The position numbers and the translations under genes were made by a program. 64,000 nt of DNA from Haloplanus salinus (GTDB taxonomy: Archaea > Halobacteriota > Halobacteria > Halobacteriales > Haloferacaceae): positions 1,736,001 to 1,800,000 of the forward strand of contig NZ_QPHM01000001.1 of NCBI RefSeq assembly GCF_003336245.1, read 5' to 3'. Shown piece by piece: positions 52,699 to 54,776 of this stretch (positions are counted from its first letter, which is position 1; each line of letters starts with the position of its first letter). The notes below the pieces were generated by a model. It was not told the origin of the DNA. It saw nothing but the letters and a program-made list of their open reading frames with translations, and did no database searches.

Positions 52699-53256
52699 CT
52701 ACCGCTCGGGCCGCCACCGACCCCCGATCTCCGGCCGCGGGTAGTCCTGATACGAGCCGTCGAGAAACGTCGTCACCCGGCCGTCCTCCTCGCTCAACGT
52801 GATGGCCCAGAGCACTCCCTCGCGGGTCGACGTCTCCAGCGCACTCAGATGTTTCGTCCCCATCCAGCCGGGGTAGTCGAGATTACCGGCGTCGCCGACT
52901 TCGCCTCGTCCCGGGCTCCGAACGCGAACCATCTGTTCCTGGATGGTGCCGTCGCCGGTCACCACGACGGCGCCGTCGCAACTGAACGCCACGTCGCGAG
53001 CGACCTTGGTGAACGCCTCGGTCGACTCCGAGACGACCCGACACCGCTCGACCGGCCACCGATTCCCCCCCAACGGATCCGTGTAGTCGGCGAAATCGAT
53101 GTCGGCGACGACGAAAAAATAGAGGCTCGGCCCGGACACGTGCTGTTCGTCCCAGCGCTCGAACTCCATGCTCAGCGTCTCGGCCGTGTACCTGATCCGG
53201 TCCATCAGCTTCTGGCTGGTGGCGTACTTCCGCAACACCCGGTCGAGATCACCCAT
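52699..53256 (-). CDS. dacZ: Diadenylate cyclase DacZ
   Basis: A 185-residue DisA_N-domain protein that makes cyclic di-AMP from two ATP. The active-site motifs are CDGAVVVTGDGTIQEQ and MGTKHLSALETST (the DGA and G[TS]RH-type loops). No transmembrane segment is present, as in archaeal DacZ. In Haloferax DacZ is reported as the only cyclase and is essential, with a tight requirement on level. A CTATATTC TATA box lies about 28 nt upstream, before the transposon remnant, so the core promoter looks intact. Confidence 0.93.
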   Translation of the reverse strand: MGDLDRVLRKYATSQKLMDRIRYTAETLSMEFERWDEQHVSGPSLYFFVVADIDFADYTDPLGGNRWPVERCRVVSESTEAFTKVARDVAFSCDGAVVVTGDGTIQEQMVRVRSPGRGEVGDAGNLDYPGWMGTKHLSALETSTREGVLWAITLSEEDGRVTTFLDGSYQDYPRPEIGGRWRPER

Positions 53257-53938
53257 GCTCGTACCCTTCGTACGTCTCGAATATAGTTAACAGTTCTCGC
53301 AAGCCCGGCCTGCCGCGGGGCAACAAAGCCTTGACATCCTCCTGCGCCTGAAGACGCCCCCAGAAATCAAAGATTGCTGGTGTGCGAACGAGGCCGTCGG
53401 TCTCCTCAACGCGGGCATCCCAAGTGTTGGGATAGTAGGGTTTGCAGTCTCCCTGCTCTCTCGGTGAGAACCGTCCGCTCCCGCGGTCGAACAGGAAGAC
53501 TCCGGGCTGTGCCAACCAGCCGTTACTCATATCCCCCGTTGGGGGACTCTGAGTTACCTTTCTGCGAATGTTCACTGCACCGTTCACGTCTGCGTTGATG
53601 ATCGTTTCGCACGACGAACAGACGTACAGCCCACGCTCCACACGGTTGCGATCCCGAATCTGCCCGCAACACGAACACGTCTTGCTCGTGTTCTCCTCGT
53701 CCACGCGGTCGACGAGGATGCCGTGTTCCTCAGCTTTGTATTCGAGGAGACGGGCGAAGCGGTCGAACTCCCACCCGTGGAGTTTCTCGTTCCCTGACGC
53801 ACCCCAGTTCCGGGAGTCGCCGTTCTCATCCTCGCGGATATCGCTGCGGTCGCCAGCTACTATCAAAAACGACGACTGGGAGTTGAATATCCGGCTGGGG
53901 TGTCGTCGGTGGATCGTGGAGGGTAGTGTCGGATTCAT
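53249..53938 (-). pseudogene. Truncated TnpB (IS200/IS605 family)
   Basis: From an ATG at 53938 the frame runs to 53249 and reads through into the dacZ start. Residues from about 30 match the C-terminal third of haloarchaeal TnpB: GDRSDIREDENGDSRNWG, then WEFDRFARLLEYKAEEHG, VDEENTSKTCSCCG and VERGLYVCSSCE (zinc ribbon), NADVNGAVNIRRKV (RuvC-III Asp) and WLAQPGVFLFDRGSGRFSP. The N-terminal 200-250 residues (RuvC-I, REC) are absent, so it cannot be an active RNA-guided nuclease. No tnpA is present. Confidence 0.85.
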
Positions 53939-53965
53939 CCCGCGTCTAAAGGCGCGGGTATTCTC
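53320..53965 (-). mobile_element. IS200/IS605-type element remnant with both ends recognisable
   Basis: At one end the sequence holds the hairpin CCCGCG (53939-53944) with CGCGGG (53953-53958), the usual subterminal hairpin. At the other end an imperfect hairpin (GCGCCTGAAGACGC, 53344-53357) is followed by CATCCTCCTG and GTCAAGG on the complementary side, as seen at the 3' end of haloarchaeal tnpB elements. The element is internally deleted (about 650 bases against about 1.5 kb). The omegaRNA region at the tnpB 3' end appears to be retained. Ends are approximate. Confidence 0.65.
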
Positions 53966-54002
53966 CTTGGTGTTTATAAGCGCCGGCGTCCAGCATTCAC
54001 GT

Positions 54003-54776
54003 ATGGACCCTGCGGTGTTGCGCGAGGATATGGTCGACGGCCTCGACCACGCCCTCGACGGCCTCGACGAAGCCGTCGGCGTGGCGATGCGGACGGTCCC
54101 CCGCGACGCCTTCGTCGAGGACCGGCCGTACGACAACCGCGCCGGCGACCACGCCGGTACAGATGTCCTCGCGCCCCGAACCGTCGCCCGCCTGCTCGAA
54201 GCCCTCGCCGTCGAGGACGGGAACGAGACGCTCGTCGTCGGCGTCGGCGTCGGCTACACGGCCGCCCTCCTCGCCGAACTCGTCGGCGAGCGCCACGTCC
54301 ACGCCGTCGACATCGCCCGGCGTCTCGTCCTCGACGCCCGCCGGAACCTCGGGCAAGCCGGCTACGAGGGCGTCCTCGTCGACCGCCGCGACGGCGCGGA
54401 CGGTCTGCCGGAGTACGCCCCGTTCGACCGGGTGCTCGTCGAGGCGTCGGCCGTCCGGCCGCCGCGTGCCCTCCTCGATCAGCTCACTCCCGACGGCCGC
54501 CTCGTGATGCCACTCGGCACCCCGGAGGGAACGCTCGCCGCCGTCGAAGTCGGCGACTCCCCCGAAGGGTACGCGGTCGTCGAGGAGTTCGGCTCGGTGG
54601 CGCTCGCGCCCCTCCTCGTCGACGGCGAACAGGCCGGGGGCGTCACGCGCAACCGCACCGAGCGCGAGGACCGCGAGTTCGCCGAACAGGGCTACTTCGC
54701 CCCGACCGGCTGGGAACACGAGTGGATCGACTGGGACGACCGCCTCGACGGCGGGCGCGGACACCGGCGTCGGTGA
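54003..54776 (+). CDS. pcm: Protein-L-isoaspartate O-methyltransferase
   Basis: With ATG 54003 the protein has 257 residues. The methyltransferase core reads ETLVVGVGVGYTAALLAELVG (SAM loop; the usual G-x-G-x-G is VGVGVGY), VHAVDIARRLVLDARRNLG and GYEGVLVDRRDGADGLPEYAPFDRVLVEAS. The family's N-terminal AMRTVPRDAFVEDRPYDN and the later PLLVDGEQAGG and AEQGYFAPTGWEHEW are present. It repairs isoaspartyl residues. A TATA-like TTTATAAG lies about 29 nt before the ATG; the TnpB remnant ends just upstream of this promoter. Confidence 0.85.
   Translation: MDPAVLREDMVDGLDHALDGLDEAVGVAMRTVPRDAFVEDRPYDNRAGDHAGTDVLAPRTVARLLEALAVEDGNETLVVGVGVGYTAALLAELVGERHVHAVDIARRLVLDARRNLGQAGYEGVLVDRRDGADGLPEYAPFDRVLVEASAVRPPRALLDQLTPDGRLVMPLGTPEGTLAAVEVGDSPEGYAVVEEFGSVALAPLLVDGEQAGGVTRNRTEREDREFAEQGYFAPTGWEHEWIDWDDRLDGGRGHRRR

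Follow-up and report, generated by a model that had tools for sequence, protein, structure and literature searches.

The region described here lies in a 64,000-nt stretch of the Haloplanus salinus genome (the window, G000:C1:1736001-1800000, G000 being the window's own genome of 3.55 Mb), where a remnant of a transposable element separates pcm from a gene for a DAC-like protein. The element is a tnpB-only (IS1341-type) member of the IS200/IS605 type. The same site was found in two further genomes of the genus, as an empty site in G007 and filled by a full-length copy of the element in G004. The features of the locus are collected in Table 1.

Table 1. Features of the remnant element and its flanks, in window positions.
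Feature	Position	Strand	Basis or remark
Whole remnant element	53331..53975	-	645 bp; left end 53975, right end 53331; tnpB-only IS200/IS605 type
Host target TTAT (minus), ATAA (plus)	53976..53979	-	Comparison of empty and filled sites; left ends of the family
Left-end subterminal hairpin CCCGCG-CCTTTAGA-CGCGGG	53939..53958	-	Sequence; motif also in relatives
Junction of the 867-nt core deletion	53858..53864	-	About 5 nt of microhomology around AATAG; overlap of two alignments to G004; breakpoint scan
tnpB C-terminal tail, 139 codons, in frame	53438..53854	-	
Zn-ribbon / TNB domain PF07282	53567..53767	-	G000:C1:1789567-1789767
sot0042 / omegaRNA-like scaffold, eroded	53393..53559	-	RF02656; last 17 nt inside the inserted unit
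55-nt two-hairpin unit in the right-end palindrome	53355..53409	-	Absent in G004; same length and point in L167 and L190
Right tip GGAGGATGTCAA	53331..53342	-	Sequence; right ends of relatives
Expected place of an omegaRNA guide (host DNA past the right tip)	53313..53330	-	Inferred from TnpB/omegaRNA architecture
TGA ending the read-through tnpB-tail frame	53249..53251	-	Just inside the DAC-like reading frame
DAC-like paralogue, not DacZ	52699..53256	-	Profile scores
Rebuilt pcm TATA box TTT/ATAAGC	53973..53981	+	TTT contributed by the element tip, ATAAGC by the host
pcm, protein-L-isoaspartate O-methyltransferase	54003..54776	+	PF01135, 113.1 bits

The boundaries of the element were set by comparison of the empty and filled sites and without the three-way MAFFT alignment, which misplaced the left end in G000. 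Window positions 53328 and 53976 are nearly adjacent in the empty site of G007, and the element measures 645 bp in the window against 1456 bp in G004. Read on the minus strand, with a slash at each junction, the filled site runs ...TTAT/AAACACCAAGGAGAAT at the left end and GGAGGATGTCAA/GGCTTTGTTG at the right end, and the empty site reads ...GGTTAT/GACTTTGTTG. The element is thus inserted 3' of TTAT without duplication of the target, and the empty site is precise and free of any footprint. A preliminary description, made from the window alone, had placed the remnant at 53249-53965; at its lower boundary 82 nt of host DNA had been counted in (53249-53330, including the start of the neighbouring gene), and its upper boundary stopped 10 nt short. 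That tnpB had kept its 3' part and lost its N-terminal part was borne out, both by a complete PF07282 domain in the minus-strand frame (82.3 bits, cut-off 26.3) and by the full-length G004 copy that occupies this site. The further claim that both ends survive stood for the left hairpin, which is intact, and for the right tip, which is present, but was weakened by the 55-nt insert, absent in G004, that interrupts the right palindrome; this palindrome carries one mismatch in G004 and is strong in the seven relatives folded.

Alignment to other copies in the window's own genome extended over 102 nt at the left end (82% identity) and over the tnpB tail (68-75%), while a few further short matches fell in pcm and are not copies of the element. 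Among 135 distinct left ends in the matches listed for the family (further matches exist), taken from 30 search loci, 100 fetched regions and copies in other loci, TTAT or TTAC stood 5-9 nt before CAAGG in 125, with a spacing of exactly 6 or 7 nt in 119 cases; these two results together place the identification of the element beyond chance. Of 170 genomes of the family, 84 contained the left-end pattern and none its reversed control. PF07282 matched 28 times in the window's genome, the window's own match included; 27 matches exceeded the cut-off and two are parts of one broken frame. A single Y1_Tnp match was found in this genome (C3:21658-21960), outside the element. Replicon C3 (409 kb) holds 16 of the 28 PF07282 matches together with that single Y1 transposase match.

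One base of the left end was found to covary with the last base of the target: AAT accompanied TTAT in 75 listed copies and TTAC in 3, and AAA accompanied TTAC in 46 and TTAT in 1. This pairing of GGAGAAT or GGAGAAA with TTAT or TTAC holds in 121 of the 125 listed copies and shows left end and target covarying in nature, in copies that are related to one another and not independent. With the exact end motifs, 91 two-ended elements were collected, of which 37 measure 272-639 bp and have no tnpB tail and 53 measure 1043-1583 bp, 52 of these with a tail. The window element is the only tail-only one, and recurrent tail-only mini-elements were ruled out on this count (1 of 91). In the nine long relatives, which measure 1454-1463 bp, the tnpB frame is open over 412-435 aa and the tail is 88-91% identical. 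Short elements resembling PATEs include L038, L040, L134, L153, L155, L158 and L159, and copies of 272-273 bp are present in several genomes of the genus.

On the plus strand the insertion lies exactly before ATAA, to which the element tip adds TTT, giving TTTATAAGC; the distance from ATAA to the ATG of pcm (54003) is 27 nt. The gene was matched in all 12 same-genus genomes, and in nine of them ATAAGC stands 26-27 nt before the ATG, two of the nine being the filled sites; the other upstream regions carry TTAAGC (G003), ATAACC (the empty site of G007) and another AT-rich box (G002). For haloarchaea, the available text of PMC4983044 gives a TATA motif TTWT, a BRE of CGAAA and 72% leaderless transcripts. 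The element tip appears to have rebuilt the TATA box of pcm, a reading that takes the anatomy from the aligned sites and the promoter activity from prediction. Only one effect of the element on its host is likely: the pcm core promoter now has the left tip as its upstream half. The preliminary description had been correct in naming pcm on this side (Table 1) and in setting the remnant against the pcm promoter, which it does adjoin, but understated the relation, as the element sits inside the TATA box. The junction TTT/ATAA is formed by 16 of the 125 listed copies with a TTAY target. A general preference for promoters was rejected: the first ATG or GTG of an open reading frame of at least 100 aa lay 20-29 nt outward in only 4 of these 125 copies (L001 and L085 being the same event), against 0-5 in the other 10-nt bins, and the pcm case is one event. 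A narrow search of papers on insertion sequences and TATA boxes or on palindromic elements in haloarchaea, judged by title and the start of the abstract, returned no fitting precedent.

The window copy encodes no complete TnpB protein, since 867 nt, in G004 coordinates, are gone and with them the N-terminus. The NCBIfam model guided_TnpB scored 82.6 bits on the tail (cut-off 100), covering only positions 306-389 of 389. The tnpB stop codon has changed from TAA to TAC and the frame reads through. After this stop loss, the TGA that now ends the tail frame overlaps the DAC-like start (53249-53256, minus strand), and co-transcription, if it occurs, could couple the two frames. In G004 an in-frame TAG replaces the TGG of the window and one base is deleted, a nonsense mutation plus a frameshift. 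The tail shared by the two copies differs by 15 substitutions in 419 aligned positions (dN 0.035, dS 0.045), a dN/dS of about 0.8 that is imprecise with only 15 substitutions. As judged from these substitutions and reading frames, the shared tail evolves like a pseudogene and the G004 copy is also dead. A domesticated, regulator-type tnpB was rejected, given the dN/dS of about 0.8 without clear constraint in either copy and the absence of the element from G007. The window copy is today without TnpB function, and a useful guide is probably absent.

The unit that splits the right palindrome occupies one fixed point of IS605-type right ends and is 55 nt long in three elements, those of the window, L167 and L190. 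Its identical position in L167 and L190 ruled out the reading of the insert as random repair filler. A search with the unit returned 17 places, spread over 7 of the 12 same-genus genomes and including five in the window's own genome, and none with the reversed control; of 15 unit loci fetched, eight have a tnpB relative and seven do not. The unit, with CAGAAATCNNNGATTTCTG as its second hairpin, was also seen in L011, L021, L255 and loci L272-L286.

An omegaRNA-like scaffold, proposed in the preliminary description, is recognisable on the remnant but eroded: RF02656 (sot0042) scored 67.4 bits (E 5.9e-17) at a relaxed threshold, below the curated gathering value of 88 bits and below the 83.6 bits of G004. 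At the gathering threshold, an Rfam scan of the whole window listed tRNA only and not sot0042. All thirteen loci given for comparison were matched, the nine relatives at 72.0-95.2 bits (six of them at least 88 bits, G004 and the other three below) and the own-genome copies L016, L024 and L025 at 147.3, 113.8 and 113.4 bits. On folding, the five inner pairs of the right end reached a probability of about 0.8 in the window against 0.95-0.98 in G004. Just upstream of the deletion junction, the former promoter region of tnpB still has a TATA-like TTTTTGATAG, so that a transcript may still arise. The empty site of G007 carries TTAT and the guide with 2 differences in 18 nt. In the window's own genome, a search for TTAY plus guide with up to 3 mismatches matched only the right-end junction of the element itself, and the reversed-pattern control also gave one match; the suggestion that an intact tnpB elsewhere might use this guide accordingly found no target there beyond that junction.

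The history of the locus was reconstructed from the three genomes. By rpoB-region DNA, G000 is closer to G007 (94.7%) than to G004 (93.0%), with a support of 0.993 for the sister node, and pcm gives the same order (93.6% against 90.8%, support 0.842); the element is nevertheless common to G000 and G004 and absent from G007, the sister of G000. Between G000 and G004, dS amounts to 0.31 in pcm and 0.27 in the DAC-like gene against 0.045 in the tnpB tail, which makes the shared copy far more recent than the split of its hosts. Because a young element is shared by G000 and G004 and missing in the sister G007, either the filled or the empty allele would have crossed between lineages, and recombination between lineages at the locus is likely on this comparison. 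Near the element the flanks of G000 are more G004-like, and farther out they are more G007-like. The G004-like tract beside the element ranks 8th of 167 segments, and such tracts occur elsewhere in the aligned region. With flanks of fixed length, the fraction of null windows was 0.19 (25 nt), 0.024 (40 nt), 0.0056 (50 nt) and 0.0125 (60 nt), and with longer ones 0.03 (75 nt), 0.05 (100 nt), 0.08 (150 nt) and 0.25 (200 nt); a 132-nt window (0.0048) was picked after the data had been seen, and the strength of the signal depends on flank length. Co-conversion in the window's lineage, an appealing idea initially, was weakened by the similar tracts elsewhere and by this dependence.

In the proposed account, a tnpB-only element inserted 3' of a TTAT at the TATA core of the pcm promoter, as the empty and filled sites show. 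Its tip supplied TTT beside the host's ATAAGC, so that pcm would have kept a TATA box at leaderless distance. The filled or the empty allele would have moved between lineages by recombination, and the copies died independently, the one in G004 by nonsense mutation and frameshift, the one in the window by the 867-nt microhomology deletion, the stop loss and the 55-nt hairpin unit. This account, taken as a whole, is considered probable with good confidence, and the element is ordinary decayed wreckage of a known kind. Several observations weigh against parts of it. The sequence before the new TATA box (CTCCTTGGTG) is unlike the CGAAA BRE given in the available part of PMC4983044. The tail frame is still open in the window, as that of a long-dead gene need not be, a weak point in GC-rich DNA. 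Since the inner hairpin of the right end can still form, the guide end counts as damaged and not as lost. On the pcm side, ten sites at which G000 equals G004 differ from G007 and point to no single direction of transfer; three of them lie upstream, and of the seven coding sites, which were scored, four look derived in G007, one looks derived in G000 and G004, and two are mixed.

A rival history is vertical descent, in which the element was already in the common ancestor and G007 lost its copy, either because it was excised precisely or because an empty allele was imported. Four of the seven scored coding sites near the junction favour it, as does the footprint-free empty site, but an element only about 4% diverged between G000 and G004 (tail dS 0.045) is too young for it unless later homogenised, and this history is judged rather unlikely. 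That G000 and G004 each acquired a near-identical element at this TTAT in separate events would be helped by the short target specificity and by an element identity that exceeds the flank identity. However, TTAT sites are many, and the short flanks beside the element are also more G004-like than expected (top 0.6% of windows at 50 nt per side, 5% at 100 nt), and such a coincidence is very improbable. TnpB homing is a possible cause of the recombination; the flank co-converted under it would measure about 80-95 nt on the pcm side and about 50 nt on the other. The fuller proposal, that homing spread the filled allele by a cut at TTAT plus guide with repair from a filled donor, and that insertions of AAA-tipped elements at TTAT create an outward TTTATAA and so repair the promoter in the same act, is unlikely to hold.

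Two alternatives would give the remnant a present-day activity. It might be a retained omegaRNA locus, whose sot0042-type RNA is loaded by an intact TnpB encoded elsewhere in the genome and aimed at the empty allele. The recognised scaffold, the inner hairpin and the TATA-like TTTTTGATAG all speak for this, as do the nearly matching TTAT plus guide in G007 and the open tnpB frames of the own genome with scaffolds of 113-147 bits (L016, L024, L025). It is set against a scaffold score under both the curated cut-off and G004, a terminal palindrome next to the guide that is split by the 55-nt unit, a lack of own-genome targets with a target-adjacent motif plus guide besides the element's junction, and substitutions that appear unconstrained; moreover, the nine closest long relatives found are all in other genomes. 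The chance of this being so is regarded as slim. Alternatively, the remnant might be a mobile PATE-like derivative that the genome's only TnpA continues to move in trans. An intact left end, a right tip and one Y1 transposase gene on C3 would allow it, and PATEs are described as mobile in Haloquadratum in the available text of PMC3119063. Yet the remnant is single-copy in its own genome and the sole tail-only element among the 91 with two ends, and its right palindrome is interrupted, all of which makes continued mobility most improbable.

On its other side the element adjoins a gene that had been taken for dacZ. The encoded protein scored 17 bits (E 0.003) against the DacZ equivalog NF041371, for which 430 bits are needed, and 22 bits against PF02457 (cut-off 27), whereas the genuine DacZ of the genome, used as positive control, lies at C1:2359570-2359926 and scored 478.5 bits. 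The protein keeps the DGA motif and has GTKH in place of the GARH of DacZ; it is possibly a nucleotide cyclase other than DacZ. A match of any kind was found in 9 of the 12 same-genus genomes and a match of at least 70% identity in 5, and 3 of 25 DAC-like loci in named records are on plasmids. Such proteins form a small family of about 185 aa, patchy in the genus. As far as given in the accessible part of PMC6741144, the DacZ of Haloferax is an essential protein whose overexpression is harmful; since the neighbour here is a patchily distributed DAC-like paralogue and not DacZ, that essentiality has no bearing on it, and the argument from cyclic di-AMP dosage fell with the gene assignment.

The locus provides a natural triplet at one site (empty, full-length and core-deleted) that fixes the target, the tips and the kinds of decay, and offers a testable case of a host TATA box of which one half would come from the tip of an archaeal transposon. 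Should co-conversion prove to be the origin of the recombined flank, this would constitute natural evidence of TnpB homing between species.

Core deletions of IS605-type elements, C-terminal remnants and PATEs are described for Haloquadratum walsbyi in the portion of PMC3119063 at hand. The window element shares with these the C-terminal remnant and the lack of target duplication, but its deletion relied on no more than about 5 nt of microhomology, and its own genome has no second copy. PATEs are marked by palindromes near their termini, lack terminal inverted repeats, duplicate no target and are too short to encode a transposase; measured against them, the window element has no duplication and no complete tnpB, but has an interrupted right palindrome and keeps a tnpB tail. 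The same portion describes SMR-A repeats, which measure about 110 bp, have prominent inverted terminal repeats and use near-terminal palindromes as insertion sites. The 55-nt unit likewise sits in the near-terminal palindrome of IS605-type elements, in three of them at an identical point, but it has 55 nt in two hairpins in place of the 110 bp or so with inverted terminal repeats, and its assignment to SMR-A was rejected. The sotRNAs and omegaRNAs of Halobacterium (RF02656), as described in the available parts of PMC8303175 and PMC12558985, share with the window scaffold the position at the 3' end of tnpB and most of the fold, from which it differs in a score under gathering and a terminal hairpin displaced by 55 nt. 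With the haloarchaeal IS1341-type IS200/IS605 elements the remnant has in common the subterminal palindrome of the left end, a TTAT target without duplication, the TNB domain and the sot0042 scaffold; the deleted N-terminal part, the lost stop and the interrupted right palindrome set it apart. In bacteria, hybrid promoters arise at the ends of insertion sequences, where the element end and the target together make one promoter element; in the window, by comparison, the composite would be an archaeal TATA box to which the tip of an IS200/IS605-type element contributes.
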